Shown: in pieces, positions 4,644 to 56,086 of the stretch
Numbering within the stretch: the first letter of the stretch is position 1
Layout: every line of letters begins with the position of its first letter
The notes under the pieces: generated by a model
Databases searched by the model: none
Told to the model about the DNA's origin: nothing
The model's input: only the letters and a program-made list of their open reading frames with translations
Program-made: the position numbers and the translations under genes
NCBI GenBank assembly: GCA_017645655.1
Contig: JAGCNZ010000045.1
Coordinates: 1 to 62,911, forward strand
DNA from: Bacteroidaceae bacterium
GTDB taxonomy: Bacteria > Bacteroidota > Bacteroidia > Bacteroidales > Bacteroidaceae
Length of the DNA stretch: 62,911 bases
Reading direction: 5' to 3'

Positions 4644-4779
4644 CTCAAAAACTTCACACGTGATAAACGCAAATATCACACGTGATAAACGCAAATATCA
4701 CACGTAATAATTAAAATATTACACGTGATAATTAAAATATTACACGTGATAATTACAAACATCACACGTGAAGTTTGAG
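4644..4779 (+). repeat. CACGTG array A (six units, inverted ends)
   Basis: Six CACGTG (one CACGTA) hexamers start at 4657, 4679, 4701, 4722, 4743 and 4765, giving periods of 22, 22, 21, 21 and 22 bp. Spacers are AT-rich, of the type ATAAACGCAAATATCA or ATAATTAAAATATTA. The outer edges are inverted copies of each other: CTCAAAAACTTCACACGTG on the left and CACACGTGAAGTTTGAG on the right. It lies between the convergent 3' ends of the giant repeat protein and dnaK. Confidence 0.9.
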
Positions 4780-4786
4780 AAGCCAG

Positions 4787-4839
4787 CCTGCCGAGTCTGA
4801 CCATGCCTCACGTGTTCTTCTATATTGAAAGTCGGCAGG
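4787..4839. repeat. inverted repeat CCTGCCGA / TCGGCAGG
   Basis: Perfect 8-bp arms at 4787-4794 and 4832-4839 enclose a 37-bp loop that holds a lone CACGTG (4809-4814). It could act as a weak terminator for the plus-strand gene or be part of array A. No T-tract follows. Confidence 0.4.
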
Positions 4840-4896
4840 AGAGGTGACATCTCAGGAAAGAACTACCGGTTCAAGTAGCCAGTAAATACCAAACAA

Positions 4897-4930
4897 AAAG
4901 CCGTGCAACTCGCCAGAGCTGCACGGCTTT
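4897..4930 (-). terminator. rho-independent terminator of dnaK
   Basis: Stem arms AAAGCCGTGCA (4897-4907) and TGCACGGCTTT (4920-4930) pair perfectly. Read on the minus strand, the stem is followed by a short T-rich stretch. It sits 20 bp beyond the dnaK stop codon. Confidence 0.85.
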
Positions 4931-4949
4931 TCTATCTGTAGCTTTAATA

Positions 4950-5420
4950 TTACTTCACCTCCTCGAAGTCGGCGTCCTGGACGTCGTCGGTAGGACCTTG
5001 CTGATTGCCGGTGTTGCCTGCATTCATATCAGGACCGGGCTGAGGACCTGCCTGCTGCTGGGCTTGATACATCTTGCCTGCAGCGGTCTGGAGTTCGTTC
5101 ATGGCTGTGTCGATGGCTGCAAGGTCTTGTGCCTGATGAGCAGTCTTCAGCTTTGCAACTGCAGCTTCGACTTCGCTCTTCACATCGGCAGGAATCTTGT
5201 CGCCGCTTTCCTTCAGCATGTTCTCGGTCTGGAAGATCATCGAGTCAGCCTGATTGAGCTTATCGACTTTCTCGCGTTCCTTCTTGTCGGCTTCAGCGTT
5301 GGCTTCTGCCTCAGCCTTCATGCGCTCGATTTCTTCCTTGCTCAGGCCGCTGGATGCAGTTATCGTGATGTGCTGCTCCTTGCCTGTAGCCTTATCCTTC
5401 GCGCTGACGTTGAGGATACC
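4950..5420 (-). pseudogene. dnaK: DnaK C-terminal part, separated by an in-frame stop
   Basis: This continues the DnaK reading frame directly after the TAA at 5421-5423. The first residues, [16 protein letters not shown], are the normal continuation of the substrate-binding beta-sandwich. They are followed by the helical lid ([14 protein letters not shown] onward) and the expected Bacteroidetes C-terminus DFEEVK. The sequence shows no other decay and keeps the Gln/Gly/Pro-rich tail. The first internal ATG is at 5321, with no convincing ribosome site, so independent translation is doubtful. Intact coding after the stop means the lesion is very recent, is read through, or is a sequence error. 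Confidence 0.8.
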
Positions 5421-6845: not shown

Positions 6846-6916
6846 AATTGTATTTAATGTTTAGTGTTATTCGTTTTGTTTTGTTCCGTTATCTCTGCAT
6901 AACGGCATAAACATCA

Positions 6917-6932: not shown

Positions 6933-6937
6933 AAACG

Positions 6938-8260: not shown

Positions 8261-8340
8261 CCCACGTGATAAATTCATTTTACCCACGTGATATTTGAAA
8301 TATTACACGTGATATTTTGATTTTACCCACGTGATAATTT
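8261..8340 (+). repeat. CACGTG array B (four units)
   Basis: CACGTG starts at 8263, 8285, 8306 and 8328 (periods 22, 21, 22). Units read CCCACGTGATAAATTCATT, CCCACGTGATATTTGAAAT, ACACGTGATATTTTGATT and CCCACGTGATAATTT. It is almost identical to the reverse complement of array E. It begins about 15 bp beyond the 3' end of the mscS-family gene. Confidence 0.9.
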
Positions 8341-8354
8341 CCGGAACGGCGTGC

Positions 8355-10976
8355 TTAGTTCTGGATATGCACGTCTCGCTGCGGGAATGGTATCGTGATG
8401 TTGTTCTTGTTCAGGGTGTTGTAGATGATTTCCTTGACGCAGGCCGTGATGTTGAGTTTCTCTTCGACAAGCATCCAGATGCACACCTTGAGGTCGACGC
8501 TGCTTTCCCCGAAATCGCTGAAGGCCACGCTGACGGGGATGTTGGTGTCCGTGAGGGGACGTCCGTCGTCGGTCTTCTCGTGGCAGATGGGCGTGAGTGC
8601 CTCGACGAGCAACTGTCGCACCTGCTCCACGTCGGTGCCGTATGCCACTCCGACAGGCACTTTGATGAGCTCGTAGCGATGGTTGCGCGTCATGTTCTTG
8701 AAGTTCTTGCTGAACAGGGCACTATTGAGGAAAGCGATGACACTGCCGTCGTTCGTAGTGATCTGCGTGCTCTGATACGTGATGCTCTCCACGCGTCCGG
8801 CGATGCCGTCGCACTCGATGTAGTCGCCCACATGGATGCGTCCCGACATCAGACTGATGCCGTAGAAGAAGTTCTCCAATATGCTCTGCATGGCAAAGCC
8901 GAGGCCCGTTGCCAGACCAGCGCTGACGATGGTGATGCCATCCTTTGGAACGTCGAAGATAGCAAGCACGATGATGATGTAGAGACCCCAGCAGACAATG
9001 CCGATGACGTTGTGCGCCAGCGTCTTGTTGATGGCTTCGTTGTCGTCGCTGAGCTGCTTGCGATAGTGCAGGTAGAAGCTTCGCACGGCATAGTTGACGT
9101 AGCGGAAGATGAAGAAGAGCGCGGCTGCCATGCACACCAGGAAGAGCGAAATGCGGCACAGGTTAGTCTGGTTGACGATGTCGCGCGTAAAGATTTTGCG
9201 GCACAGACTCGTCATCTCGAATACCTGCGCTGCCCAGTAGATGCTCACCAGGATGGAGAGCACGGCAAGTATGGGCACGATGGTGCGGCAGAAGAGGTCG
9301 TACAACCACGTTCGGTCGATGAAATCGCCCTTTTTCACGCGTTTCATCAGAGACAGACGTCCCTCCTCGTCGTTGACATCGGTCGCGAGGTGCTTGATCA
9401 GGTAGCGTGCCTCGTACTTCTTCGTCAGGTCGTAGATGAACGTTATTGTCATGATGGCAGCCAACTGGAATGTCCACCAAATCATCACCTGCACAGCGAG
9501 CAGCGTGTAGCCTACCCAAGCAGCAAGGCAGGCGAAGAGCATGGCGGCTGTCGTGATGTGCGTATAGACCTTGTCGAGCAGCGGCAAGTACTGCCTGTGC
9601 CGCTTCGCCACGACATATTGCCAGATGGCGAAGACGAGCAGGATGGGCGGGAAGATGAGGTTGACCAGGGTGTTCGGGATGAGCACGATGCGGAACAGTA
9701 TGACGATGAACGCCAGCACCATCAGCGGTGTGTAGATGATGGCAGCATGTCGCATCTGCTCGCTCTTGAGGCGCACGTACAAGCTGAGGAAGACCGCCTC
9801 AAGCAGCCAGGCAATGTTGATGATGAGTCCCGTGCCCATCTGGATGAAGTTGCGCTGCACGGAAGCCCTCACCACCATCACGATGATGGCGAAGAGTGCG
9901 ATGCCAGCCACGAAGTTGAGCATGCGCCGCTTCTCCTTGAAATTCGGTCCCCGCCACTTCTTCGGCAACAGCCAGCGCAGTATGATATAACAAATGCCGA
10001 GCGAGAGTGCAAGGTAGAAGACAAGGAAGATGCTGATGAACATCACTGTCGCACCTCTCCACTCGGAGTAGAGCTGGCTGTGTCCCTCAAAAGGTTTGTA
10101 CTTCATGTCGACCGTCGACTTTGCCATCATAATCTGCATCGGCAGGGTGGCAAGGATGCGGAAATAGTTGGCGCCGCCGTTTCGGAAGATGTTGTCCTGC
10201 AGCAGCTTGTACCGGCTCTGTGCGTACTTGTCGAGTTCGAGCACCTTTTCTCTCACGCTTTGATAGTAGGCGTTCTCGGCTTCGAGGCTCTCCAGGAAGT
10301 GCTGCATGTTGTTGCGTATCGTATCGGCAAACAGCAGGCAGGCGTTTCTGTCGCGCTGCTGCGCTCTCGTCAGGAAAAGCGGCTCTCCCAGTTCTTCCTC
10401 TTCGGGAATCTCGTCTTCGGTCTCTTCCAGCATCTCCATGGTTGTCTCGTCCATCGATACGCGAGCGACGAGCAAGGAGTCTTGCTTGCCTGCCAACGAA
10501 TCGATGGCTTGCAGCAGGACGCTGTCGCTGGCAGTGAGGATGCTGTCCGCATCGATGACCGGCGGCATGCGCTTCAAGGAGCGGATGAGGTAGTCGGTGC
10601 GCTCGATGTCCTGCTTGATGCGGGCGATAATCTTGTCATACTGCCGCATCTTGCTGTTACGGTTGTCGAGGTCGCGCCTCAGGTTGGCCGCCTGCTGGCA
10701 GGCATACGCCATGTCGAAGGTGTTGTCGGTGGATTGGGAATAGAGCATCAGCCCTATCTGCTCGCATTGATGCATGTACCAAACCAGTTGCTGGTGTTGC
10801 TGCATGCCCTGCTGCTCGTAGCTCTGCATGAATGCCTGTTGCATCTCATAGTTGGTCTGCAACTCAGCTTTGAGCACGCCGAGCGTGCGTGCCAAGTCTT
10901 TCTCCTTGAGTACGGAGCCGACGGGCGTTATAAAGATGAGCAGCAATGCTGCCAGAAGGAAGAAACGCCTTTTCAT
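8355..10976 (-). CDS. MscS-family mechanosensitive ion channel
   Basis: The 873-residue inner-membrane protein resembles the large MscM/MscK-type members of the MscS family. A signal-like N-terminus (MKRRFFLLAALLLIFITPVG) precedes a long, probably periplasmic helical region (about 25-300) rich in Gln, Arg and Asp. About eight or more hydrophobic segments follow (about 300-640). The MscS pore and beta domain are at the C-terminus, seen as GLGFAMQSILENFFYGI, GDYIECDGIAGRVESI and NSALFSKNFKNMTRNHRYE. These channels release solutes on hypo-osmotic shock. The start codon lies 21 bp after the GH31 stop, so it is probably the last gene of that operon, although a link between a channel and glycosidases is not obvious. 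A long open frame on the opposite strand is a shadow. Confidence 0.9.
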   Translation of the reverse strand: MKRRFFLLAALLLIFITPVGSVLKEKDLARTLGVLKAELQTNYEMQQAFMQSYEQQGMQQHQQLVWYMHQCEQIGLMLYSQSTDNTFDMAYACQQAANLRRDLDNRNSKMRQYDKIIARIKQDIERTDYLIRSLKRMPPVIDADSILTASDSVLLQAIDSLAGKQDSLLVARVSMDETTMEMLEETEDEIPEEEELGEPLFLTRAQQRDRNACLLFADTIRNNMQHFLESLEAENAYYQSVREKVLELDKYAQSRYKLLQDNIFRNGGANYFRILATLPMQIMMAKSTVDMKYKPFEGHSQLYSEWRGATVMFISIFLVFYLALSLGICYIILRWLLPKKWRGPNFKEKRRMLNFVAGIALFAIIVMVVRASVQRNFIQMGTGLIINIAWLLEAVFLSLYVRLKSEQMRHAAIIYTPLMVLAFIVILFRIVLIPNTLVNLIFPPILLVFAIWQYVVAKRHRQYLPLLDKVYTHITTAAMLFACLAAWVGYTLLAVQVMIWWTFQLAAIMTITFIYDLTKKYEARYLIKHLATDVNDEEGRLSLMKRVKKGDFIDRTWLYDLFCRTIVPILAVLSILVSIYWAAQVFEMTSLCRKIFTRDIVNQTNLCRISLFLVCMAAALFFIFRYVNYAVRSFYLHYRKQLSDDNEAINKTLAHNVIGIVCWGLYIIIVLAIFDVPKDGITIVSAGLATGLGFAMQSILENFFYGISLMSGRIHVGDYIECDGIAGRVESITYQSTQITTNDGSVIAFLNSALFSKNFKNMTRNHRYELIKVPVGVAYGTDVEQVRQLLVEALTPICHEKTDDGRPLTDTNIPVSVAFSDFGESSVDLKVCIWMLVEEKLNITACVKEIIYNTLNKNNITIPFPQRDVHIQN

Positions 10977-16733: not shown

Positions 16734-16840
16734 CGCAACGTGTGAAGATGCAAAACATCACGTGGGATAAATCGAATTATTACACGTTAAATTTCAAATA
16801 TCACGTGTAATATTTTGAATCATCGCGTGCCGTGTTTTCA
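16734..16840 (-). repeat. CACGTG array C
   Basis: Hexamers AACGTG, CACGTG, CACGTT, CACGTG and CGCGTG start at 16737, 16759, 16783, 16802 and 16824 (periods 22, 24, 19, 22), so this copy is partly decayed. It is oriented opposite to A and B and bordered by GAATGAAAACGC on one side and GCGTGCCGTGTTTTCAA on the other, motifs shared with arrays D, E, G and H. It lies just 3' of the TolC gene. Confidence 0.8.
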
Positions 16841-22597: not shown

Positions 22598-23476
22598 ATG
22601 GAGAAACTCGACTTTCAGGCTATCGTAGATAGCAAACTCAACTTTCATTGCAATGACCACATTGCCATTTTCAGTGATTTTGAAGAGGTGCGCAACCTCA
22701 CCATCTCCGATGTCCTGGTCGAGGGCTTCTTGTTTGCCGTCATCACTCACGGGCAGGCGCAGATTTCGGTCGACGACAAGACGTATCAGCTCAAGGAGGG
22801 CGACGTCATCACTTGCAAGCCGCGCAACATCTTCGAGCGGAGCATGATGAGCATGGACTTCAATGCCTTGCTGCTCTTCCTCTCGCCGGAGTATGTGGCT
22901 CAGCTCTCGCAGATGGTCCGGATGGAGTGGACCTACTCCATGTTTTCCACCTCGCACAAGATTCTGCATGCCGATGAAATGGCGGTAAATCGCTATCGTC
23001 TCTACTTCGACTTGCTGAGGAATCACCTCTCCAGCCCTGACACGCCGCACAAGGAACTGTGCCTGCGCTTGCTTTTCGGCTCGATGGCGTACGACCTCCA
23101 CGACCTCCAAAAGTTCCAGGACGAGGAGTTGCTGCACCAGACCTACAGTTCCGGAGAGAACATCCTGAGGCAGTTCATGCAGCATCTGCACGACCCTGCA
23201 CAGCCCTACCTCAACGTCAACGAGTACGCCAACCTGTTCAACATCACGCCGAAGTACTTTTCGAGTGTCTGCAAGCGCCTCACCGGCAAGACTGCCAACC
23301 AGTTGATAAGCGATGAAATCGTGCGTTCTGCACAAATCACGCTCCGCGACAGCAGCAAGAGCATCAAGCAGATTGCCGCCATGATGGGCTTCAAGAATCA
23401 GTCGCATTTCGGCAGGTTCTTCCGTCAGCAGACAGGCGTCTCGCCCCAGCAATATCGCGAGGGAAAGACGATTTGA
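22598..23476 (+). CDS. AraC-family transcriptional regulator
   Basis: The 292-residue regulator has an N-terminal cupin-like sensor region (about 30-150; ISVDDKTYQLKEGDVITCKP) and a C-terminal double helix-turn-helix (about 200-290). The latter shows VNEYANLFNITPKYFSSVCK as the first HTH and IKQIAAMMGFKNQSHFGRFF as the second. The position divergent from the RND pump operon suggests it controls that operon, possibly in response to a compound bound by the cupin domain. That is inference from context. A small hairpin (CACATT/AATGTG, about 23482-23503) and array D follow the stop. Confidence 0.92.
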   Translation: MEKLDFQAIVDSKLNFHCNDHIAIFSDFEEVRNLTISDVLVEGFLFAVITHGQAQISVDDKTYQLKEGDVITCKPRNIFERSMMSMDFNALLLFLSPEYVAQLSQMVRMEWTYSMFSTSHKILHADEMAVNRYRLYFDLLRNHLSSPDTPHKELCLRLLFGSMAYDLHDLQKFQDEELLHQTYSSGENILRQFMQHLHDPAQPYLNVNEYANLFNITPKYFSSVCKRLTGKTANQLISDEIVRSAQITLRDSSKSIKQIAAMMGFKNQSHFGRFFRQQTGVSPQQYREGKTI

Positions 23477-23537: not shown

Positions 23538-23630
23538 TTACCCACGTGATAAATTCATTTTACCCACGTAATATTTCAAATATTCCACGTGATATTTGTA
23601 ATTTACCCACGTGATGTTTTCAAACGTGGC
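23538..23630 (+). repeat. CACGTG array D (four units)
   Basis: Hexamers start at 23543, 23565 (CACGTA), 23586 and 23608 (periods 22, 21, 22). It has the same orientation and spacer order as array B. It is preceded by AATGAAAACGCGG and ends GATGTTTTCAAACGTGGCA, the end motif shared with C, E, F and H. It lies 3' of the AraC gene and 5' of the CotH promoter. Confidence 0.9.
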
Positions 23631-23711: not shown

Positions 23712-23761
23712 CGTCGCTTTGTGTTCGCAAATGCGCATGCGTGTGCGGACATAAATTAAAA

Positions 23762-26700
23762 ATGGATATGATAGAAACCACGGTGCGCAGGCTGGCTGTC
23801 CTGCTGTCGATAATGTTTGCTCCGCTCCTGTCGCAAGCCTACAATCCGGCTGTCGACGGGCTTCTCGAGGGTGCGCTGATGTGCTCCGGCACAGCGGAGA
23901 AGGCGGCATTGGCCTTCGACGGAGATGCCTCGACCTACTACAGCACCTCCGCCAGCGAGATGCAATGGATAGGCCTGGACCTGGGCGAGCCATGCGTCAT
24001 CACACGCGTCGGATATACGCCAGCACCGGGCAGTCAGGGCGCCGACCGCATGCTGCTCAGCCTCTTCGAGGGCGCCAACAGTCCCGACTTCATGGACGCC
24101 CTGCCCCTACACTTCATCAGCCAGATGCCCGCCACGGGCGTTGCTGCGACTGCCGACGTCACTGTCAGCCGAGGCTTCCGCTATGTGCGCTACGTCGGCG
24201 GAGCAGGCTCCTACTGCAACGTCGCTGAGCTCCAGTTCTACGGCCATGCCGGCGAAGGCGACGACAGCCAGTTCTATCAGGTCACCAACCTGCCGACCCT
24301 CAGCGTGCACGTGCAGAACAATGTCAAGCCGACCGTCCGCGGCCAGGACCACGAGTCGCAGTCCCAGCTCATCTACGACGGCGGAACACGCCTGCAGGAC
24401 TATCCCGTCCTCTTCCGCGTGCGCGGCAACTTCTCCTCCAGCCCCGAGAACAAGGCCTATCGCATCAAGTTCAACGACGGCAAGACCCACCATATGATGC
24501 GAGGCTCGGCCAACGAATCGCCCACGAAATGCAGGAAATGGGTCCTCATCAACAGCTATCGCGACAAGACTTTAATGCGCAATCCCGTCACTTGGGCCAT
24601 GTCGAAGAGAGCAGAAATGCAGTGGACGCCATGGAGCCAGATAGTCGACCTCTTCGTCAACGGCGACTATCGCGGCACATACACCCTGGCCGACGCAGTC
24701 TCCGTAGACAGCAAGCGCATCAACATCACCGAGATGACCAGCGACGACATCGACGACGAGTACATCACCGGAGGCTACTTCGTCGAGGTTGACAACAATG
24801 CAAGTCGGGAACCATACTGGTTCACGTCGTCCCACGGCAACCCCGTCACCGTGCATGACCCCGACGAAGACGTCATACAGAGGGCACAGTTCAATTACAT
24901 CCGCGACACGTGGAATGCCATGGAGGATATCGTCTTCAGCGCAAACTATACTGACTGGGAAAGCGGACAGCGCTCGGTCCTCGACATCGAGTCCTTCCTC
25001 AGATATTTCCTCACAAGCGAGTTCAACGGCAATACCGACATGCTCTGCCAAGACTTCCTCTACAAAGAACGAGGCGACGACCACTTCTACACCGGTCCTG
25101 TCTGGGATGCAGAACTGGCACTCGAAAACGACAGAACAACCTATCCCGCCAACGAACGCATGGACTGGACCTATAAGGTTCGCGACACAGGCAACTGGAC
25201 ACAGTTCGTCGGACGCGTCCTCTCCGACCCATCCGTCTTTGCACAACTGCAGGAGATGTGGGCGATGCTTCGCAAGAAAGGCAACTTCGAGCCCGAAGAC
25301 GTAGCAGCCGACGTGGACTCCCTGCGAGAAGAGGTGCGTGCATCGGCCGACCTCAACTTCATCCGCTGGCCGTATCTCAACCAGGAAATCTCGCTCAACC
25401 CGGTCGTCCCAGGCTCATGGGAAGCAGAAGTTGACCGTGTGCGAGACTACGTTCGCGACCGCGTGGCATGGATGGACGAGATGCTCTCCTACGGACGCCT
25501 CCGTCAGGAAGACGGCATCTATCAGATTGCATCCGGCATGGACCTCTGTTTCTTCAGCCGACTGGTCAATGAGAATGGCGAGACAGAAGCAAAGGCAGTG
25601 CTCGTCGCCGACATCGACATGTCCCACTGCAGCGAGGAATTCCAGCCCATCGGCTGCCAGACGGCACATTTCGCAGGCAGTTTCGACGGCAAGGGACACG
25701 TCATCCGCAACCTCCATATCAGTGGCAGCCAAGATGTCGTCGGACTCTTCGGCTATACCGACAGCTGCACCCTGAAAGACATCACCTTCGACGAGACATG
25801 CTCCGTGGAAGGAAAAGACAAGGTAGGCATGCTCGTGGGTTATGCCTATAGCGGCATTGCAATCATCTCCGGCATAGAGAATCATGGCACGGTAGTCGGC
25901 ACAGGACGAGCAGCGGGAGGCATCGTCGGCTATGTCCACACCTATACCCACGCCCAACTCACCAATTGCAGTAACACCGGCGACATCACGGCGTCTTTCA
26001 ACGCCGCAGCACTCGTCGGCTCTTCCGGTGGCCGCGTGACGGTGAAGAACAGTTTCAATACAGGTAACGTCACTGGCGCTACAGAGAGAAAAGAGTTCGC
26101 CTATGGAACCCAAAGCACGTCCATCACCAATTGCTGGGACTGCTCTTCTACACAAACCAACAACATGACACCTGCACAGGTGGACAATGGCTATCTCTGC
26201 TATCACATCAATGCAGGTGCCGGCAGCGACATCTGGCATCAGAACATCGACAATGGCAAGGTGCACAATCCCTGGCCTGTGCTTCGAATGAAGGGCGGCA
26301 AGGTCTTCGAAAAGGATGGCGGCTACACCAACTACAATCCTAATTTACCGAAGTATCGATATTATAACCTCGTCATCACGAAGATACAGTCTGGCCGTTG
26401 CATCCAGTTCTCCGAGTTCGATATCCTCGACGAGAAAGGTGCTGAAGTAGAGGACCTTTATATTTACGCTGGCACAGAGTCCAGCATCTCCCACGAGAAC
26501 TGGGAAAACGCCGCCGACAACAATGTCACTACCAAGTACTGCAACGGCTCCTTCGACGGCTATGCCTATTTCCTTTTCGATGCGACGCGTTCGGTGAGTC
26601 TCTGCGGCTACCGCATCTACACGGCCAACGACACTGGCAACCATCCCGAGCGCAATCCTGTCTCTTGGCAACTGTATGGCAGCAACACGCAACTCTACGA

Positions 26701-27694
26701 TGCCGACGACCCTGCTTGGGAACTCATCGAGGAACGTGAAGAGGACAACACTATGCAAGCCACTAACTACCTTCCTTACGACTTCTTTGTCTCCGATCCC
26801 ATCAAGTCGTTGACCCTCAGCGAGCAGACCGCAACCATCATGCGCGGCGAGAGAAAGCAACTGCAGGTCACATTCTCACCCAGCACGATGGAGGGCCTTA
26901 CGTTGCAATGGACAACGACTGATGCCACTGTCGCTACGGTGAGCAGTCAAGGACTGGTCAAGGCAAAGGCTGAAGGCATAGCTGACATCATCGTCTATGC
27001 CGTCGAGGATACCATCTTGCGCGATACTTGCACCGTTACCGTCATGCAAAGGCAACCCGGCTACCGTTACTATCAGATTGCCATCGAGAAGGTAAGCGGC
27101 AACACTTCCATACAACTCTCTGAGATAGATTTGCTTGATCAGGACGGCAACGAAGTGACTCCGCTCACGCTTTATGCCTTTACTGGCTCATACTATAGTG
27201 ATGAGGTGCAGGCAAACCTCTTCGACAATAACTACGGCACCAAGTACTGCGGTCCATTCTCTGCAGCCAATCCAACATATCTGTTTGTGGATGCAGGTCA
27301 GCAAGTGCAGTTGTCCGGCTATACACTCGTCACCGCCAACGATACTCAAAGGAACCCCGACCGCAATCCTGTCACGTGGTCGCTGCTTGGCGGCAACACC
27401 ATGAGCGATGTGCCCGACGATGATGTTTGGACACTTCTCGACCGGCGCGAGGGCGACACGACGCTTGAAGCCTCCAACTATACGCCCTACTACTTCGCTC
27501 TTCCCGAACTGATTATCCCTGGGGACGTCAATGGCGACGGCTATGTGGATGCCGACGACCTGGTAGCTCTCAAGCGCCATATCATCGGCAAGCCGGTGGA
27601 GAACTTCGTTGTGGAAGCAGCCGACCTCAATGACGATGAAGTGATAAACGGTCAGGACGTGGTGACGTTAATCCGTATGATAATGAATGAATAG
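23762..27694 (+). CDS. CotH-kinase / GLUG / discoidin-like / Big_2 / dockerin surface protein 1
   Basis: The start at 23762 gives a signal peptide ending at LLSQAY; the alternative GTG at 23741 adds only polar residues. Domains in order, numbered from this start: a discoidin-like domain (about 35-155), then a CotH domain (about 170-560). CotH motifs are KWVLINSYRDKTLMRNP, FVNGDYRGTYTLAD and YTGPVWDAELALEND. GLUG-type repeats follow (about 610-780), then discoidin-like module m1 (about 863-1010), Big_2 (about 1016-1095), module m2 (about 1100-1250) and a type I dockerin (about 1253-1310). The dockerin shows GDVNGDGYVDADDLVALK and a second Ca-binding copy. CotH domains are atypical protein kinases in Bacillus spores and occur with dockerins in cellulosomes; the role here is unknown. 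It forms an operon with a paralog 15 bp downstream. Confidence 0.88.
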   Translation: MDMIETTVRRLAVLLSIMFAPLLSQAYNPAVDGLLEGALMCSGTAEKAALAFDGDASTYYSTSASEMQWIGLDLGEPCVITRVGYTPAPGSQGADRMLLSLFEGANSPDFMDALPLHFISQMPATGVAATADVTVSRGFRYVRYVGGAGSYCNVAELQFYGHAGEGDDSQFYQVTNLPTLSVHVQNNVKPTVRGQDHESQSQLIYDGGTRLQDYPVLFRVRGNFSSSPENKAYRIKFNDGKTHHMMRGSANESPTKCRKWVLINSYRDKTLMRNPVTWAMSKRAEMQWTPWSQIVDLFVNGDYRGTYTLADAVSVDSKRINITEMTSDDIDDEYITGGYFVEVDNNASREPYWFTSSHGNPVTVHDPDEDVIQRAQFNYIRDTWNAMEDIVFSANYTDWESGQRSVLDIESFLRYFLTSEFNGNTDMLCQDFLYKERGDDHFYTGPVWDAELALENDRTTYPANERMDWTYKVRDTGNWTQFVGRVLSDPSVFAQLQEMWAMLRKKGNFEPEDVAADVDSLREEVRASADLNFIRWPYLNQEISLNPVVPGSWEAEVDRVRDYVRDRVAWMDEMLSYGRLRQEDGIYQIASGMDLCFFSRLVNENGETEAKAVLVADIDMSHCSEEFQPIGCQTAHFAGSFDGKGHVIRNLHISGSQDVVGLFGYTDSCTLKDITFDETCSVEGKDKVGMLVGYAYSGIAIISGIENHGTVVGTGRAAGGIVGYVHTYTHAQLTNCSNTGDITASFNAAALVGSSGGRVTVKNSFNTGNVTGATERKEFAYGTQSTSITNCWDCSSTQTNNMTPAQVDNGYLCYHINAGAGSDIWHQNIDNGKVHNPWPVLRMKGGKVFEKDGGYTNYNPNLPKYRYYNLVITKIQSGRCIQFSEFDILDEKGAEVEDLYIYAGTESSISHENWENAADNNVTTKYCNGSFDGYAYFLFDATRSVSLCGYRIYTANDTGNHPERNPVSWQLYGSNTQLYDADDPAWELIEEREEDNTMQATNYLPYDFFVSDPIKSLTLSEQTATIMRGERKQLQVTFSPSTMEGLTLQWTTTDATVATVSSQGLVKAKAEGIADIIVYAVEDTILRDTCTVTVMQRQPGYRYYQIAIEKVSGNTSIQLSEIDLLDQDGNEVTPLTLYAFTGSYYSDEVQANLFDNNYGTKYCGPFSAANPTYLFVDAGQQVQLSGYTLVTANDTQRNPDRNPVTWSLLGGNTMSDVPDDDVWTLLDRREGDTTLEASNYTPYYFALPELIIPGDVNGDGYVDADDLVALKRHIIGKPVENFVVEAADLNDDEVINGQDVVTLIRMIMNE

Positions 27695-27709
27695 AAAAAT
27701 AATAAGATA

Positions 27710-30700
27710 ATGATGAAATTGATATGTCGCAGGCTTACTGTCCTGCTATCTCTGATGTTTGTGTGTGGGATGTCGCATGCCTACGATTCCTTAGTCGACC
27801 ATCTTCTCGAAGGAGAGTTAATGTACTCGGGAAACCGGACGAATGCACTCAAGGCATTCGATGGTGATGCCTCTACTTATTATAGCACTAATTCAAGTGA
27901 TATGCAATGGGTAGGTCTTGACCTGGGCGAGCCATACGTCATCACTCGTGTCGGATATACACCCATGTCGGGTTTCCAAGGTGCTGACCGTATGTTGCTC
28001 AGCATCTTCGAAGGCGCCAACAGTCCCGACTTCATGGATGCTGTGCCCTTGTACCTCATTAGCCAAAAGCCAGCAAACGGCACTGCAACGACTGCCGATG
28101 TGAATGTCAGCCGTGGCTTCCGCTATGTGCGCTACGTCGGCGGTGCCGGCTCTTATTGTAACGTCGCAGAGCTAAGCTTCTTCGGACATGCCGGAGAGGG
28201 TGATGACAGTCAGTTCTATCAGATTACAAACCTGCCGACGCTCAGTGTGCATGTGCAGGACAACATCCTTCCGACCGTGAAAGGCGAGGACTTCGAATCG
28301 CAGTCTATCCTCATCTATGACGACGGAACACGAGTGCAGGAGTATCCTATCCTGTTCCGTGTCCGTGGCAACTACTCGGCGTCGCACGAGAACAAGGCGT
28401 TCCGCATGAAGTACAACGACGGCAAGAGCCATCACGTGATGCGAGGAGGCAAGAACGAATCTCCTGCGAAAGCAAAGAAGTGGGTGCTCATCAACAGTTA
28501 TCGCGACAAGACGCTCATGCGTAATCCTGTGGCGTGGACTGTGTCAAAGCGTGTCGAAAGGAACTGGACGCCGTGGAGCCAAGTGGTTGACCTCGTTGTC
28601 AACGGCGACTATCGCGGTACCTATACCCTTGCCGATGCTGTCTCCGTGGATCCTCATCGCATTGATATCACTGAGATGACTGCCGACGACGTGGACGATG
28701 AGTTCATCACCGGCGGCTACTTCATTGAGTTGGATAACTATTACGATCAGGAACAAAACCATTTCCTCTCAGGTAAGGGCAACAAGCTTTCCATTCACGA
28801 ACCTGATGAAGAAGTGCTGCAGCCCGAGCAGTTCCAGTACATAGAGAACACTTGGAATGCAATGGAGGACGTAGCCTACAGTTCAAACTATGCAGATAGG
28901 GAGAACGGACTGCCTTCTGTCTTCGACCTCGAGTCGTTCTTCTCGTGGTTCATCGCGAGCGAGTTCAATGGCAATACCGACATGATATGCCAGGTCTTCA
29001 AGTACAAGGAGCGAGGCGATGACCATTTCTACACTGGCCCAATCTGGGATGCCGACCTTGCTCTCGAGAACGACGAGACGACATATCCTGCCAATGAATA
29101 CATGGATTGGACATACAAAAAGCGTTGCTCGACAGGTAACTGGAACCAGTTCCTGACGCGTGTCCTTTCCGAACCTTCGTTCTTTGCGCAGTTGCAGGAG
29201 ATGTGGGCGAGGTTGCGCAGGAAAGGCAACTTCGAGCCCAACGACCTTGCCGATGATGTCGATTCCCTGCGAAATGAGGTACGCGCTTCTGCCAACCTCA
29301 ACTTCATCCGCTGGCCCTACCTTAATCAATATCTCTCCCTCAACCCAGCCGTCCCTGGCTCATGGGAAGCAGAGGTGGACCGCGTCCGCAATTTCGTCCG
29401 TGACCGCGTGGCATGGATGGACCAGATGCTTTCCTACGGCATCCTTCGCCAAGTGGGTGGTGTCTATCAGATAGCGTCTGCTCTCGACCTATGCACTTTC
29501 TGTCAAATGGTTAACGAACTTGGCATGACGGATGCCAAGGCGGCTCTTGTTAACGACATTGACATGACGGAATACAACGACATGTTCCAGCCTATAGGTC
29601 TTCAGACGGCGCGCTATGAAGGAACGTTCGATGGCAAAGGCCACACCATAAGCAACCTCCATCTCAGCGGCACAGATGCTGTTGGCTTCTTCGGCTATGT
29701 AAATAAATGTACGATCAGCAATATCGTTTTCGACGAGAGCTGTAGCGCTGAGGGCACGTCGCATGTCGCCATGCTTGTCGGCTATGTGCAGACTGGCGTA
29801 GTCAACATCTCGGGCGTAGAGAACCAGGGCAGCGTCACTGCTTCCGACGGCTATGCCGGAGGTTTGGTGGGTTATGGACGTATTAATTCGGTGTTCTATG
29901 TCAACAACTGCTGCAACACAGGAGCAGTTACAGCACTGAATAATGCCGCTGCTCTCGTTGCTCCGTCGGCAGGCAAGGTGACTGTGACGAACTGCTACAA
30001 CATCGGAACCATCACCGGTGCCACGGAGGGCAAGGAGTTTGCTTATGCCAACATGCTCACTTCCATCGACAATTGCTGGGACTACACCTCTATGCAGACC
30101 AACCCCTTGACGCCTGCTCAGCTCGACAACGGCGAGCTCTGCTACAGGCTGAATGGCAACGGCGAGCGCGACACGTGGCGTCAGAACCTCGACAACGGCA
30201 AGCCTCACGATGTTCGTCCCGTGCTGAGCAATAGGAGCGGCAAGGTCTATGAGCAGGAAGGTCGCTACACCAATATCAATGCTGATGCTGCCAAGTATCG
30301 CTACTACAATCTTGTCATCACGAAGGTGCAGGGCGGATATGACGGCAACCTTCAGTTCTCGGAGTTCGATATCCTCGACGAGACGCTCGACGAGGTGAGC
30401 GACCTGTACGTCTACTCGGGCGGTCCCGATGGCTATAATAATGAGAACTGGGACAATGCTGCCGACGGCAGTGTTTATACCAAGTATTGTGGTCGCTTCT
30501 GGGGCAACGCTTATTTCCTCTTCGATGCAGGCACTGAGGTTGATGCTTATGGATATCGCATCTATACTGCCAACGACACGGGCAGTAGCTCAGATCGCAA
30601 CCCATGCTCATGGAAGCTCTATGGCAGCAACACCCAGCTCTATGATTCCGACGACTCGGGCTGGACGCTTATCGATGAGAGAGAGGACGACTGGACGATG

Positions 30701-32812
30701 CAGCCCACGAACTATGAGCCCTACGACTTCCTCATTCCTCATTCAATCCGGTCGCTTACGCTCAACCGCCACTCTGCCACACTCACATCTGGCCAGGAGT
30801 TGCAGCTCTCGGCAACTTATACTCCTGCTATCATAGATAACGTAACGTTGCAGTGGACGAGTACAAACGAGAATATCGCTACTGTCGACCAGAACGGCCT
30901 CGTTGTCGCAGTTGGCTTGGGCACGACCGACATCATCGTCTCCGCACCGGACTTCAGCACCTTGCGCGACACGTGCACCGTCACTGTCGTGGAGCAATTG
31001 GCAGGCTATCGCTACTTCCAGCTTGCCATTGAGGAGATTGTAGAGGGTTCCACCATACAGTTCAGCGAGTTTGCCCTCCTCGACCAGAATGGCGACGAGA
31101 TTACGCCGCTCACCACATATGCCTGGACAGGCACGTACATCAAGGACCATGACCCGGACGACCTCTTCGATGGCGATCTCTCGACAAAGTATTGTGCTGC
31201 GTTCGAGCCTACATTATATATATATATAGATGCAGGCGCTACCGTAACGATTTCCGGTTATCGCATCACGACGGCTGCCGACACGCAGAGCTTCTCCGGC
31301 CGCAATCCGAAGACGTGGTCGCTCTTTGGCAGCGAGACGCAGAGCGATGTCCCCGACGACCCGGCATGGACGCTCCTGGACCGCCGCGAGGACGACACGA
31401 CGCTGGGAGCCATCAACCTCACGCCCTACGACTTCCTGCTGGATGCTCCCATCATCGAGGAGCCTGCCACGCCATACCGCTACTACAACCTGTTTGTCAC
31501 CGGGTTGCAGGGAGGCGACGTCCTGCAGTTCTCTGAGTTCGACATCCTCGACGAGACGGTTTCCGAGGTGGCAGGACTGCAGACTTATGGCGGGCCCCAA
31601 TACAACAATGGCTCCGAGGGCTGGCCCAACCTGACCGATGGCGACCTCCATACGAAGTACTGCAATGGATTCGGAGGCAGCGCCTACTTCCTGTTCGACG
31701 CAGGCAGCGAGGTGGTACCCTACGGATACCGCATCTCCACGGCAGGCGACTCGAATATGTATCCCGAGCGCAATCCCAGTTCATGGACGCTCTATGGCAG
31801 CAACACACGACTGACGTCTCCCTATGATTCCGGTTGGGAAGTCATCGACCAGCGCAATGGCGACACGACAATATCTGGCACCAACTATACGCCCTTCGAC
31901 TTCTTCTTCAGGGAAGTGCCCAACCTGCTGACCCTCGACAAGCACTCCTATCTGCTTGCCATCGGCGAGGAGCTGCAGCTGCAGGTCAGCGACAGGCTTG
32001 GCGTCCTGCCTGGCATGACCCTGCTGTGGGAATCTTCCGACGAGTCTGTTGCCTACGTCGATGAGCAAGGACTTGTCTTTGCCACCGGACGAGGCACGGC
32101 AGACATCATTGTCACCGATGCCGACGACCCGACGCTCTCCGACGTCTGCACCCTCACCGTCATGGACGAGCTTCCGGCACACCGCTACTATCAGTTCGTC
32201 GTCGAGGCTACTTACAACAACACATCCATACAGCTCTCCGAGTTCGACCTCCTGGACCGTGACGGCAACGAAGTATCGACGCTATCTCTCTATAAGTCCA
32301 CAGGTTCCTCCTATAGCAGCGACGAGACGCAGAGCAAGCTCTTCGACAACACTCCCTACAGCAAGTATGCCGGTTCGTTCTCGACCAGCAACCCCGTCTG
32401 TCTGTTTATGGATGCCGGACAGCCCGTCACGCTCATCGGCTATCGCCTCACCACGGCAAACGACACCTATGAGTTCCCGGAACGCAACCCCGTCACGTGG
32501 GCACTCTACGGCAGCAACACAAGGAGTACCATCTCCAGCCATCAGTCGTGGACGCTCCTGGACCGCCATGAAGACGACACCACGCTGGGAGCACTCAACT
32601 ATACGCCCTACGACTTCTACTTCGCCTATCCGCAGCCCGTCATCGCGGGCGACGTGAATGGCGACGACGTGGTGGATGCTCTCGACTATCAGGCCATGCG
32701 CCTATACATCGTGGGCAAACCCGTGGAGGGCTTCGTGCCCCAGGCTGCCGACCTCAATGGCGACGGCAAAATCAACGCCCAGGACCTCGTGGAGCTCATC
32801 AAGCTCCTGTAG
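27710..32812 (+). CDS. CotH-kinase / discoidin-like / Big_2 / dockerin surface protein 2 (expanded paralog)
   Basis: The 1700-residue protein is a tandem paralog of the preceding gene, with the signal peptide ending at CGMSHAY. The first 850 residues align domain for domain: discoidin-like, CotH (KWVLINSYRDKTLMRNP, YTGPIWDADLALEND) and GLUG repeats. The C-terminal part is longer. Modules run m1 (about 862-1005), Big_2 (about 1010-1095), m2 (about 1098-1240), m3 (about 1257-1400), Big_2 (about 1405-1485), m4 (about 1490-1640), then dockerin (GDVNGDDVVDALDYQAMR and a second repeat). The extra 390 residues equal one more module-Big_2-module block. Codons differ from gene 1 (more T/C-ending synonyms early), so the duplication is not recent. 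It is co-transcribed with gene 1. Confidence 0.88.
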   Translation: MMKLICRRLTVLLSLMFVCGMSHAYDSLVDHLLEGELMYSGNRTNALKAFDGDASTYYSTNSSDMQWVGLDLGEPYVITRVGYTPMSGFQGADRMLLSIFEGANSPDFMDAVPLYLISQKPANGTATTADVNVSRGFRYVRYVGGAGSYCNVAELSFFGHAGEGDDSQFYQITNLPTLSVHVQDNILPTVKGEDFESQSILIYDDGTRVQEYPILFRVRGNYSASHENKAFRMKYNDGKSHHVMRGGKNESPAKAKKWVLINSYRDKTLMRNPVAWTVSKRVERNWTPWSQVVDLVVNGDYRGTYTLADAVSVDPHRIDITEMTADDVDDEFITGGYFIELDNYYDQEQNHFLSGKGNKLSIHEPDEEVLQPEQFQYIENTWNAMEDVAYSSNYADRENGLPSVFDLESFFSWFIASEFNGNTDMICQVFKYKERGDDHFYTGPIWDADLALENDETTYPANEYMDWTYKKRCSTGNWNQFLTRVLSEPSFFAQLQEMWARLRRKGNFEPNDLADDVDSLRNEVRASANLNFIRWPYLNQYLSLNPAVPGSWEAEVDRVRNFVRDRVAWMDQMLSYGILRQVGGVYQIASALDLCTFCQMVNELGMTDAKAALVNDIDMTEYNDMFQPIGLQTARYEGTFDGKGHTISNLHLSGTDAVGFFGYVNKCTISNIVFDESCSAEGTSHVAMLVGYVQTGVVNISGVENQGSVTASDGYAGGLVGYGRINSVFYVNNCCNTGAVTALNNAAALVAPSAGKVTVTNCYNIGTITGATEGKEFAYANMLTSIDNCWDYTSMQTNPLTPAQLDNGELCYRLNGNGERDTWRQNLDNGKPHDVRPVLSNRSGKVYEQEGRYTNINADAAKYRYYNLVITKVQGGYDGNLQFSEFDILDETLDEVSDLYVYSGGPDGYNNENWDNAADGSVYTKYCGRFWGNAYFLFDAGTEVDAYGYRIYTANDTGSSSDRNPCSWKLYGSNTQLYDSDDSGWTLIDEREDDWTMQPTNYEPYDFLIPHSIRSLTLNRHSATLTSGQELQLSATYTPAIIDNVTLQWTSTNENIATVDQNGLVVAVGLGTTDIIVSAPDFSTLRDTCTVTVVEQLAGYRYFQLAIEEIVEGSTIQFSEFALLDQNGDEITPLTTYAWTGTYIKDHDPDDLFDGDLSTKYCAAFEPTLYIYIDAGATVTISGYRITTAADTQSFSGRNPKTWSLFGSETQSDVPDDPAWTLLDRREDDTTLGAINLTPYDFLLDAPIIEEPATPYRYYNLFVTGLQGGDVLQFSEFDILDETVSEVAGLQTYGGPQYNNGSEGWPNLTDGDLHTKYCNGFGGSAYFLFDAGSEVVPYGYRISTAGDSNMYPERNPSSWTLYGSNTRLTSPYDSGWEVIDQRNGDTTISGTNYTPFDFFFREVPNLLTLDKHSYLLAIGEELQLQVSDRLGVLPGMTLLWESSDESVAYVDEQGLVFATGRGTADIIVTDADDPTLSDVCTLTVMDELPAHRYYQFVVEATYNNTSIQLSEFDLLDRDGNEVSTLSLYKSTGSSYSSDETQSKLFDNTPYSKYAGSFSTSNPVCLFMDAGQPVTLIGYRLTTANDTYEFPERNPVTWALYGSNTRSTISSHQSWTLLDRHEDDTTLGALNYTPYDFYFAYPQPVIAGDVNGDDVVDALDYQAMRLYIVGKPVEGFVPQAADLNGDGKINAQDLVELIKLL

Positions 32813-32859: not shown

Positions 32860-32967
32860 ACCATCGCGTGCCATGTTTGAAATTGTCACGTGGGTAAAAT
32901 GAAAATATCACGTGTAATATTTCAAATATCACGTGGGTAAAATGAATTTATCACGTGGGTCGTTTGG
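32860..32967 (-). repeat. CACGTG array E (five units)
   Basis: CGCGTG at 32865, then CACGTG at 32887, 32909, 32930 and 32952 (periods 22, 22, 21, 22). Its reverse complement matches array B almost base for base through CCAAACGACCCACGTGATAA and the following spacers. It ends in the shared motif CATGGCACGCGATGG when read on the minus strand. It lies 48 bp after the CotH-2 stop. Confidence 0.9.
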
Positions 32968-41030: not shown

Positions 41031-41132
41031 AGGCACGTGATGTTTGCAATTATTCCACGTGATGTTTGCAATTATTCCACGTAATATTTTTATTTTAACA
41101 CGTGATATTTTCGATTATCCCACGTTGCGTTT
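41031..41132 (+). repeat. CACGTG array G (five units)
   Basis: Hexamers start at 41034, 41056, 41078 (CACGTA), 41099 and 41121 (CACGTT); periods 22, 22, 21, 22. The first two units are exact repeats (CACGTGATGTTTGCAATTAT). The end GTTGCGTTTCC is the reverse complement of the left end of array C. It lies between the FAS1 terminator and the GH29 gene. Confidence 0.9.
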
Positions 41133-54092: not shown

Positions 54093-54116
54093 AATTTAAT
54101 AATGTATATTCTGCTG

Positions 54117-54124
54117 CAAAGATA
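54117..54124 (-). promoter_or_regulatory. -7 box (TATCTTTG) of GH66
   Basis: TATCTTTG on the minus strand, 24 bp before the GH66 ATG. It is divergent from the PH-domain gene promoter 76 bp away. Confidence 0.55.
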
Positions 54125-54176
54125 GCATTTTATCAGTTAAGAGAAAAGCCGAGAGGCAAACTTTCTGCCTTGTTTC

Positions 54177-54207
54177 TTGTTTTGTAAGCAAAAACATGTT
54201 ATCTTTG
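54177..54207 (+). promoter_or_regulatory. promoter of the PH-domain gene
   Basis: TTG (54177-54179), a 20-bp gap, then TATCTTTG (54200-54207). It shows that the ATG at 54196 lies within the promoter and that translation starts at 54229. Confidence 0.6.
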
Positions 54208-54228
54208 CAAAGCAAAAAGCATAAGATT

Positions 54229-54759
54229 ATGGCAAATTACATCAAACAGAGCCTCGAAGAGGGCGAGACAATTATCTTCAAGGGACGGCTTCACTGGTCG
54301 TATATTTTCAGGTATCTTCTCTTTACTTTCCTGTTTTTTGCAGGTGGCTTGACGGCAATTTGGCTGGCTTACTACAAGTATCCTGAGCAGAAGGATGCTC
54401 TCTTTTATATGGGCATAGCCATGCTTGTACTGGCTTTCATCATCTGGATTATCGGGCGCATCGTCAGGACACGAAGCGAGTTTGCCGTCACGGACACCCG
54501 TTTCGTGCAGAAGGACGGCATCTTCAACATCAAGATGACGGAGATTCCGCTGGCTCGCATCGAGACCGTCAACTTCTATCAGTCCCTGTGGCAACGCTTT
54601 CTTGGCACTGGATGCGTGGAGATGGTGGGCAGCGGCGGCACATCGCATCAGGTGCATTGCATCGAGGAACCTATGAAGGTGCGAAAGATTATCTGCGCTT
54701 CCATCAAGAAACCTGTGCCTGAGATGAAGAAGGAGCAAGCGGAAGTCGAGCAATTATGA
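54229..54759 (+). CDS. bacterial PH-domain membrane protein
   Basis: The protein has 176 residues from the ATG at 54229 (MANYIKQSLEEGETIIFKGR). Two membrane segments (about 25-45 and 60-80) are followed by a bacterial PH-like (YdbS-type) domain at about 85-150. The domain shows TRSEFAVTDTRFVQKDGIF and MTEIPLARIETVNFYQS, the standard motif for this family. The function of these small membrane PH proteins is not established. Its stop codon is inside an AATTATG repeat tract, and the acyltransferase gene begins 11 bp later. Confidence 0.85.
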   Translation: MANYIKQSLEEGETIIFKGRLHWSYIFRYLLFTFLFFAGGLTAIWLAYYKYPEQKDALFYMGIAMLVLAFIIWIIGRIVRTRSEFAVTDTRFVQKDGIFNIKMTEIPLARIETVNFYQSLWQRFLGTGCVEMVGSGGTSHQVHCIEEPMKVRKIICASIKKPVPEMKKEQAEVEQL

Positions 54760-54786
54760 ATTGTGAATTATGAATTGTGAATTGAA
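54752..54786. repeat. AATTATG/AATTGTG 7-bp repeat bridging two genes
   Basis: Five heptamers (AATTATG, AATTGTG, AATTATG, AATTGTG, AATTGAA). The tract supplies the TGA stop of the PH-domain gene and the ATG start plus first codons (MNCELK) of the acyltransferase. Confidence 0.85.
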
Positions 54787-55888
54787 AGAGCGCATCGCCT
54801 TCGTCGATTGGATACGCGTCATCGCGTGTTTCCTGGTGATGCTTGTGCATGCCAGCGAGAACTTTTATGGTGCCGACGACAGCGGATTGGCTGGCAACGT
54901 CTCGATGCTTGCCAACGAAAGTAACCGTTTCTGGGTCGCCTTCTACGACGGAGCCTTAGGTCGCGTCGCCGTTCCACTCTTTATGACCATCAGCGCATTC
55001 CTGCTTGTGCCGATTAAGCCGGGCATGGGCATGGGCGAGTTCTATCGCAAGCGCGCTTTGAGAATCCTGCCTCCGATGATTATCTTCATGTTCCTCTACT
55101 GCTTCTTGCCGCTGGCTTGGGGCGGCATGACATGGGAGCAGTCGATGAGCGACCTCAGCCGTCTGCCGTGGAACTTCCCGTCGATGGCAGGTCATCTCTG
55201 GTTCATGTACCCCCTCATCAGCCTTTACCTCATCATTCCCGTCGTGTCGCCCTGGCTCGAGAAGGCTTCTGCAAAGGACGAAAGGCTGTTCCTCTACATC
55301 TTCGCCTTCTCGACGACGATGCCCTGGCTGCATCGTTTCGTGAGCGACGAGCTGTGGGGCGAGTGCTTCTGGAACGGGTTCCACATGCTCTGGTACTGCT
55401 CGGGCTACCTCGGCTACCTTGTCCTGGCGCACTATATCCGCTATCATCTCAAGTGGACTGACAGCAAGCGCATCGTCGTAGGTCTTGCCTGCTTCATCAT
55501 CGGCGCCGCGTTCACCGGCTGGAGTTTCTGGCTGAAAGGCGTGCCCGGCGTTGCCATCGAGACCCCGATGCTCGAGTGGAGTTGGGAGTTCTGCACGCTC
55601 AACGTCTTGGTTGCGACCTACGGTCTCTTCATCCTCTTCTCGACGATTCATCGGCCGGCCCCAAGGCTCATCACCTCTTTGTCTAAGCTGAGCTTCGGCA
55701 TGTACCTGATGCACCTGTTCTTCCTGGCGCCCATCGCCGTCTATTTCGTCAATGGCAACCAGGCACAACCCCTGATTCCCGTCTGGGCAGCCATCCCTGT
55801 GATAGCCGTCTTGAGCTTCATCTGCTGCGCTGTCACCACGAAGATAATCTCCCTGCTGCCCGGCAGCAAGTGGGTCGTAGGTACTTAA
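54770..55888 (+). CDS. acyltransferase family 3 membrane protein
   Basis: The 372-residue integral membrane protein has about ten hydrophobic segments. It matches the OafA/YrhL-type acyltransferase family that O-acetylates or O-succinylates surface glycans and exopolysaccharides. Family features are FVDWIRVIACFLVMLVHASE (conserved R and H in TM1), YRKRALRILPPMIIFMF (the R-R/K-R block after TM2-3) and HLWFMYPLISLYLIIPV. The start codon and first residues derive from a 7-bp repeat, so the true N-terminus may have been replaced or extended by the repeat; conserved sequence begins at ERIAFVDWIR. A terminator follows. Confidence 0.88.
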   Translation: MNCELKERIAFVDWIRVIACFLVMLVHASENFYGADDSGLAGNVSMLANESNRFWVAFYDGALGRVAVPLFMTISAFLLVPIKPGMGMGEFYRKRALRILPPMIIFMFLYCFLPLAWGGMTWEQSMSDLSRLPWNFPSMAGHLWFMYPLISLYLIIPVVSPWLEKASAKDERLFLYIFAFSTTMPWLHRFVSDELWGECFWNGFHMLWYCSGYLGYLVLAHYIRYHLKWTDSKRIVVGLACFIIGAAFTGWSFWLKGVPGVAIETPMLEWSWEFCTLNVLVATYGLFILFSTIHRPAPRLITSLSKLSFGMYLMHLFFLAPIAVYFVNGNQAQPLIPVWAAIPVIAVLSFICCAVTTKIISLLPGSKWVVGT

Positions 55889-55916
55889 GCAAGAGGTCGT
55901 CTCCGGTTGCATAAAC

Positions 55917-55960
55917 AAACACTCCCTGCTATGTCGTCCGACGTAACAGGGAGTGTTTTG
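55917..55960 (+). terminator. terminator of the acyltransferase gene
   Basis: Arms AAACACTCCCTG (55917-55928) and CAGGGAGTGTTT (55947-55958) with an 18-nt loop, followed by TTG. It lies 28 bp after the stop. Confidence 0.85.
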
Positions 55961-55962
55961 AA

Positions 55963-56086
55963 TTATCACGTGGGTAAATTCGAATTATCACGTGTAATAT
56001 TTAAAATATAACGTGGGTAAATTGAAATTATCACGTGGATAAAATTAATTTATCGCGTGGGTTGTTTTCAAACGTCACGTGCCGCG
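55963..56086 (-). repeat. CACGTG array H (six units)
   Basis: CACGTG at 55967 and 55989, AACGTG at 56010, CACGTG at 56032, CGCGTG at 56054 and CACGTG at 56076 (periods 22, 21, 22, 22, 22). Oriented like C and E. It ends GTTTTCAAACGTCACGTGCC. It lies between convergent genes, starting right at the acyltransferase terminator. Confidence 0.9.

Follow-up and report, generated by a model that had tools for sequence, protein, structure and literature searches.

High-copy intergenic palindromes are known in bacteria as repetitive extragenic palindromes (REPs) and bacterial interspersed mosaic elements (BIMEs). They are often species-specific, and in E. coli, Pseudomonas, and other bacteria they lie mostly downstream from coding regions, where the neighboring genes converge or run in one direction; the palindromes of BIMEs are regularly spaced and alternate in orientation (PMC2817692 and PMC3733652, in excerpt). 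REPs of the CGTC type, with stems of 8–9 bp, loops of 4–5 nt, and no transposase, are reported from Bacteroidetes too (PMC3733652, in excerpt). In Porphyromonas gingivalis, the intergenic tandem repeats named BrickBuilt have a 23-nt unit (AGAYCATARTATCCTCTCRTRTG), occur at 19 scattered sites with one to 22.8 repeats, and carry leader and tail segments with IS5-family-like terminal inverted repeats (PMC4596501, in excerpt). Here we describe arrays of CACGTG palindromes spaced by 21 or 22 bp in a 62,911-bp contig of a Bacteroidaceae bacterium (JAGCNZ010000045.1, assembly GCA_017645655.1), the whole of which we call the window. REPs/BIMEs and BrickBuilt are the closest known systems, and we found no described family that matches.

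The extraordinary feature of the window is the spacing of CACGTG, not its abundance. The hexamer itself is mildly enriched (36 copies vs. 22.4 in shuffled sequence, with one of 100 shuffles as high), and the pattern CACGTG-N15/16-CACGTG occurs 12 times vs. a shuffled mean of 0.01. Across the source genome assembly (2.74 Mb in 130 contigs, 84% complete) we counted 502 such pairs, compared with two for the reversed-pattern control (GTGCAC). A first-pass annotation of the window had predicted genome-wide enrichment of this spacing and hundreds of copies per genome, and both predictions held. For the copy number we rely on the 502 pairs because the 390 kb of source-genome sequence used for finer analysis (20 stretches and the window) came in part from contigs already known to contain matches; in that sample, 36 arrays had two or more exact sites, a density of about one per 11 kb.

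Because our array finder accepts only steps of 20–23 bp, or of 42–44 bp across a gap, we drew the step statistics from raw distances and from steps between neighboring sites. Distances of up to 160 bp between CACGTG sites in the 390 kb fell at 22 bp (59 cases), 21 bp (15), 43 bp (35), 44 bp (15), 65 bp (31), 66 bp (3), 87 bp (17), and 109 bp (5), and are mostly sums of 22 plus at most one 21, as in the 31 cases of 65 bp vs. three of 66 bp, with no array finder involved. Neighboring sites no more than 30 bp apart were separated by 21 or 22 bp in 74 of 77 cases, leaving three steps off the rule. A single 21-bp step is the norm for the 31 arrays that contain four or more sites: it was seen in 29 of them, in one case counted from a 43-bp gap, and the remaining two have a pair of such steps. 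The period of the source-genome arrays is 22 bp, usually with one 21-bp step per array; the two-helical-turn period first proposed stands as 22 bp, with the single shorter step as a rule that the proposal had not included.

The 21-bp unit has a spacer of its own (ATATTTGAAATATTA and variants). Spacers have diverged considerably: the 22-bp units carry 396 substitutions in 94 units (4.2 of 16 positions off the consensus) and the 21-bp units 78 substitutions in 32 units. This many spacer substitutions, set against only three of 77 steps outside 21 or 22 bp, suggests that unit length is held while spacer sequence drifts. Units at the same position were compared among 28 arrays, with identities of 0.795 for the core, 0.832 at +1, 0.705 at +2, 0.651 at −1, and 0.554 at −2. 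Within arrays, unit pairs had a mean identity of 0.719; the adjacent +1/+2 pair reached 0.817, and seven of 25 adjacent pairs were identical. We infer that a founder array, core included, may have been copied to numerous sites and that the copies then underwent local duplication and decay; the argument is carried by the shared 21-bp core, and the unit identities back it partly. The exact core unit had no match in a contig collection that may omit near relatives of the source genome.

The same rhythm recurs in relatives. In 14 other genomes of the same genus, we searched 233 intergenic regions for tandem periods between 10 and 60 bp and found 85 periodic regions, compared with 3/233 dinucleotide shuffles and 4/207 coding pieces; the lag was 22 bp in 46 of them, 44 bp in eight, and 14 bp in 11. 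The stretches used here, and those behind the half-site and gene-context counts below, were partly picked near known matches, and their array densities are therefore biased. When the cut was made stricter and the gene caller simpler, lags of 21–23 or 43–45 bp were found in 38/103 regions of the source genome, 54/224 of the genus, and 12/156 of other genera in the family, densities that are not unbiased because these stretches were partly picked near known matches, and in 1/127 regions of other families of the phylum, drawn from contig 1 of 20 genomes and not picked for matches. In 42 of 72 arrays from relatives, the set to which this test was confined, the repeat consists of 11-bp half-sites in alternating orientation (P ≤ 0.05; 3.6 arrays expected), relative to a null in which the repeat is preserved and its columns are permuted. 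Of these relatives' arrays, 62 passed a consensus quality cut, and CACG/CGTG is present in 37 of the 62 consensus units vs. 6.7 in shuffles. A frequent unit form, read from the consensus units by eye, is YGTnnnnnTTG|CAAnnnnnACR. The ends of the source-genome arrays carry similar words: in 21 of 31 arrays GTTT follows the last box by no more than 2 nt, and in 17 of 31 AAAC precedes the first box by no more than 4 nt, compared with ∼0.01 at random positions; we read these ends as traces of the relatives' common unit form.

Neutral minisatellites, grown by slippage, homogenized locally, and inheriting a 22-bp unit, would account for the identical adjacent pairs and for the presence of other short-period tracts in like regions (lag 14 in 11/233). 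We regard them as a very improbable explanation: a single box across hundreds of pairs, together with a shared 21-bp step, goes beyond local slippage, which would moreover spread the periods, yet 22 and 44 bp make up 54 of the 85.

The box itself differs between genomes. CACGTG pairs number from zero to 72 in other genomes of the genus, at most 11 in sampled other genera of the family, and at most two in each of the 197 further genomes sampled from the phylum, so expansion to the degree of 502 pairs is confined to the source genome. Pairs of CCGCRYGCGG at 22 bp number 334, 309, and 76 in three genomes of the same genus and two in the source genome (12/139 genomes have any; the control was zero throughout). 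Pairs of TTAACGTGTTA, with strands summed, reach 134 in one genome and 44, 20, and 18 in the next (13/139 with any). Even the reversed control, GTGCAC-N15/16-GTGCAC, reached 49, 40, 34, and 12 pairs in four genomes of the same family (G255, G218, G181, and G273), and GTGCAC is apparently a further box family; we read one such array, at about 10604 in L321. The source genome also has 22/44-bp arrays of other boxes, with CCGCACGCGG at about 7387–7490 in L035 and TAGCGGCCGCTA/GAATTC units at about 11757–11860 in L040.

A change of box could be followed at an orthologous site. Of 30 loci fetched for the region between the gene for an MscS-like protein and the next gene, six had both flanking genes confirmed (several misread loci were not used), and the same two flanks enclose four different arrays: CACGTG in the source genome, CCGCRYGCGG in G016, TTAACGTGTTA in G039, and TATAGTGT in G057. 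The other two genomes, G075 and G080, have no array there. Past the gene for an efflux protein, where 12 loci were fetched, seven looked at, and two resolved, arrays again occur in G016 (CCGCACGCGG) and G057 (with CACACGTG), next to a gene that differs from the one in the window. CACGTG, which had been taken as the defining motif, does not keep that role, as relatives hold the 22-bp period with other boxes; the lasting property of the wider repeat system looks like the period rather than the word, and the first-pass annotation saw one species-specific version of it.

These observations could be taken further, to a fast-evolving DNA-recognition system in which one family of lattice-binding dimeric proteins keeps hundreds of intergenic 22-bp arrays, and in which a shift in specificity would rewrite the boxes at most sites (CACGTG in the source genome; among those elsewhere, CCGCRYGCGG, TTAACGTGTTA, and TATAGTG) without altering their positions or geometry, much as in the fast-turning satellite or binding-site systems of eukaryotes. 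We consider this stronger version unlikely.

The arrays resemble REPs and BIMEs in being extragenic and in favoring gene ends and convergent and tandem regions, and they may resemble BIMEs in their dominant period of 22 bp and in the alternating half-sites of the relatives' arrays, a likeness that does not extend to the 22-bp spacers of the source genome, which lack a dyad. They differ in the packing of their units, at a 22-bp period, and in that REPs have an unpaired GTAG or CGTC tag; in the 62 consensus units of relatives, these tags were not enriched over shuffled means (GTAG, two vs. 8.4; CGTC, eight vs. 6.6). Units of 8-4-8 form in one genome (G099) resemble the stems and loops of CGTC-type REPs as given in the excerpt of PMC3733652. 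BrickBuilt comes close in unit length, and its unit as published in the excerpted source, written as a circle, can form the 12-bp dyad TCTCRT|RTGAGA. It differs in having 23-nt units where the arrays have CACGTG units of 22 or 21 bp, in its sequence (compared by inspection), in its 19 copies, and perhaps in its ends, which have IS5-like terminal inverted repeats vs. the short AAAC/GTTT ends of the source-genome arrays. In the literature we searched (titles and the starts of abstracts), nothing describes intergenic arrays of palindromes at 22 bp from Prevotella, Bacteroides, or Bacteroidales; the text of PMC2267715 has no mention of Bacteroides, Porphyromonas, Prevotella, tandem, or period, and the table row in the excerpt of PMC12306157 (RepRanger) concerns other Bacteroidota. 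At the Rfam gathering threshold, the window matches one tRNA only and no family for the arrays. The initial suspicion that no named repeat family has this pattern agrees with both searches. Another difference from REPs is that the available 84% of the source genome has no Y1_Tnp, the domain of REP transposases, although a REP-associated tyrosine transposase (RAYT) would be expected for the GTAG type only; mobilization by a RAYT was considered and rejected on this count.

The consensus of parS, the chromosome segregation site, contains CACGTG. With the 16-bp consensus, a search at no more than three mismatches gave 12 matches vs. nine for the control, and the flanks of the arrays do not fit, so we rejected an identity with parS. 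The best matches in the genome were two sites, with one and two mismatches, respectively. Apart from the common core, the idea that the arrays are segregation sites of the parS type has to contend with a CCGCRYGCGG family that lacks this core, and we hold it to be extremely unlikely. The single-mismatch site (G000:C11:14419–14434, in L028) is a candidate true parS.

The arrays favor the ends of genes. In the source genome, 29 of 31 arrays with at least three sites are intergenic, one is at the end of a stretch, and one is within a called gene. Across the source genome and the 14 other genomes of the genus, we asked which intergenic regions of 100 bp or more hold an array of the 22 type; with codon-based gene calls, these were 24/44 convergent, 63/211 tandem, and 16/78 divergent regions, and the convergent and divergent shares differ at P = 0.0002. 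All gene calls are heuristic, and divergent contexts were more numerous with a simpler caller than with codon-based calls. Strand and distance were measured for 61 of the 63 tandem arrays (two exceeding 260 bp were dropped); 46 of the 61 are closer to the upstream stop, and the median distances are 21 bp to the stop and 130 bp to the following start. Mapping to gene ends, as first suggested, yielded a preference for stops.

A start so close behind the stop, together with the long RNA hairpins predicted for many of the arrays that were folded, would suit elements that act in RNA, forming the 3′ part of mRNAs, with hairpins that stabilize or end transcripts. Strand is indifferent, which speaks against such a role: the sense strand was not favored over the antisense strand in folding (30/60 with the simpler caller; 26/61, P = 0.20, with codon-based calls), and the polarity of source-genome arrays relative to tandem genes was the same in eight cases and opposite in eight. 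Pairing partners over the whole array were no more alike in relatives than in permuted arrays (3/72 at P ≤ 0.05), arrays also occupy the divergent regions counted above, and of 34 genes that read toward an array, only 10 have a predicted terminator-like hairpin, five before the array and five beyond it. We rejected a function as RNA hairpins and consider an RNA-level role improbable; a role at the level of DNA, as first suggested, is supported by the strand counts (30:30, 26:35, and 8:8).

The reading that we lean toward, tentatively, is of a REP/BIME-like dispersed family of intergenic repeats that acts as DNA and is read by a putative dimeric protein. A lineage-specific founder array would have been copied to many intergenic sites of the source genome, and the spacing would be kept by a dimeric DNA-binding protein occupying neighboring dyads on one helix face. 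Candidates would be a nucleoid or topology factor or a protein that spreads the repeat; BIMEs are bound by gyrase, IHF, or Pol I. The box might change with the specificity of this protein or with the mobile family that invaded last. Most arrays of relatives form a lattice of alternating 11-bp half-sites with a twofold axis each 11 bp, and in the source genome the CACGTG box is the dyad itself. Both protein binding and mobility are our inferences. Binding by a dimeric protein, part of the original proposal, is plausible, but the dyads that relatives show between boxes are not detectable in the source-genome 22-bp spacers.

Several observations weigh against this protein-read family. In the source genome, no dyad emerges from the 22-bp spacers, where the best match was 0.505 and the null 0.517 (P = 0.59, n = 94), and the 21-bp spacers give no more than a hint of one (0.844 vs. 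0.733, P = 0.08, n = 32); the missing dyad weakens our explanation and strengthens that of a selfish repeat. We identified neither a binding protein nor a transposase for the arrays: Y1_Tnp (PF01797) had no matches in the source genome (84% complete; relatives were not searched). No target-site duplication was clear, with shared flanking words of at least 7 nt in 7 of 31 arrays vs. about 2.9 expected. Unit similarity seems to bear out founder copying only in part, and local duplication occurs too, as the identical adjacent pairs attest. The fixed period could reflect shared ancestry and homogenization and not selection on geometry, and a selfish repeat spreading in bursts accounts for much of the pattern.

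Purely selfish repeats, similar to REPs or to miniature inverted-repeat transposable elements (MITEs) and moved in trans by some enzyme, are a serious contender, although one to which we give somewhat less credence. Such repeats would have no host function; their insertions past stops would be the least harmful and would accumulate there, and 22 bp would be an inherited unit length. Bursts in single genomes (the 502 CACGTG pairs and the 334 and 309 CCGCRYGCGG pairs) fit this account, as do the 21-bp step common to the arrays, the short inverted AAAC/GTTT ends, the absence of an array from the orthologous MscS region in two of six genomes, a bias in location that matches avoidance of promoters, and the 22-bp spacers without dyads. 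It meets difficulty in the lack of a transposase and of a clear target duplication among our findings, and in two features that ancestry alone does not require: the length of the unit stays the same both inside a box family and from one family to another despite rewritten sequence, and 11-bp dyads persist in relatives.

Arrays were found in about one-third of sampled intergenic regions of at least 100 bp (39/107 in the source genome and 64/226 in the 14 other genomes, with stretches again partly picked near known matches), so they probably have a bearing on transcription ends, DNA topology, or genome rearrangement in their hosts. The combination of a constant geometry with a genome-specific box offers a handle on the long-standing question of whether high-copy intergenic palindromes are selfish or serve as platforms for chromosome proteins, and a change of box at an orthologous site lets these two readings be told apart.

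All seven arrays first noted in the window are present, with first sites 2 to 13 bp after the starts given for them (Table 1). The count of four to six palindromes in each applies only in a looser sense that admits boxes with one mismatch (CACGTA, CACGTT, CGCGTG, and AACGTG); exact CACGTG sites number two to six. Strict steps of 21 or 22 bp had been claimed for all arrays but C; this was right for B, D, E, G, and H and for the irregularity of C, and wrong for A, which has one 44-bp step. In C, the two middle steps sum to 43 bp, the same as 21 + 22.

Table 1. CACGTG arrays in the window, with box positions, steps, and neighboring genes
Array	Position	Strand	Boxes	Steps (bp)	Exact CACGTG	Boxes including one-mismatch	Context
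A	4657..4770	+	4657, 4679, 4701 (CACGTA), 4722, 4743, 4765	22, 22, 21, 21, 22	6 (with 4809)	7 (with 4809)	Convergent region, 3′ of stop at 4636
A, extra CACGTG	4809		4809	44 (from 4765)			
B	8263..8333	+	Four exact boxes	22, 21, 22	4	4	Adjoins stop of MscS-like gene 8355–10976 (−)
C	16737..16829	−	16737 (AACGTG), 16759 (exact), 16783 (CACGTT), 16802 (exact), 16824 (CGCGTG)	22, 24, 19, 22 (irregular)	2	5	Past stop of outer membrane efflux gene starting at 16864 (−)
D	23543..23613	+	23543, 23565 (CACGTA), 23586, 23608	22, 21, 22	3	4	66 bp 3′ of AraC-type gene 22598–23476 (+)
E	32865..32957	−	32865 (CGCGTG), then four exact boxes	22, 22, 21, 22	4	5	52 bp 3′ of CotH-domain gene with end at 32812 (+)
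G	41034..41126	+	41034, 41056, 41078 (CACGTA), 41099, 41121 (CACGTT)	22, 22, 21, 22	3	5	Stop at 40921 (+) on one side, start at 41190 (+) on the other
H	55967..56081	−	55967, 55989, 56010 (AACGTG), 56032, 56054 (CGCGTG), 56076	22, 21, 22, 22, 22	4	6	Convergent region; predicted terminator-like hairpin alongside, about 55917–55958

Between arrays D and E, positions 23741–32812 hold two adjacent large genes with CotH kinase, F5/8 type C, Big_2, and dockerin domains. A second type of intergenic short-period tract occurs in genomes of the same genus, AT-rich and with a lag of 14 bp (also 8–9 bp), for example, ...AAATAGTAAATAGTAAATAG...; short-period AT-rich tracts are also found in the source genome (L021, 17540; L024, 999).

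CACGTG at this spacing extends beyond the family. At least 109 stretches had matches, comprising many Bacteroidales arrays and some from other phyla, of which several look like perfect tandem repeats and are possibly coding. Arrays with a 21-bp period and CACGTG/CACATG/CATGTG boxes were seen in metagenome-assembled genomes of Verrucomicrobiales, Akkermansia, and Treponema (L042, L075, and L125) and may be either relatives of the present arrays or coding repeats. In IMG/VR, three CACGTG at 21 or 22 bp occur in 42 viral stretches, with spacers unlike those of the source genome by inspection, and we set aside a spread of the arrays by viruses; these sets are possibly phage operator or partition sites. 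Among such viral contigs are L152, L172, L182, L183, and L184, the spacers being alike in the first three, and three others (L159, L170, and L177) carry CACGTG at 21 or 22 bp with identical spacers.

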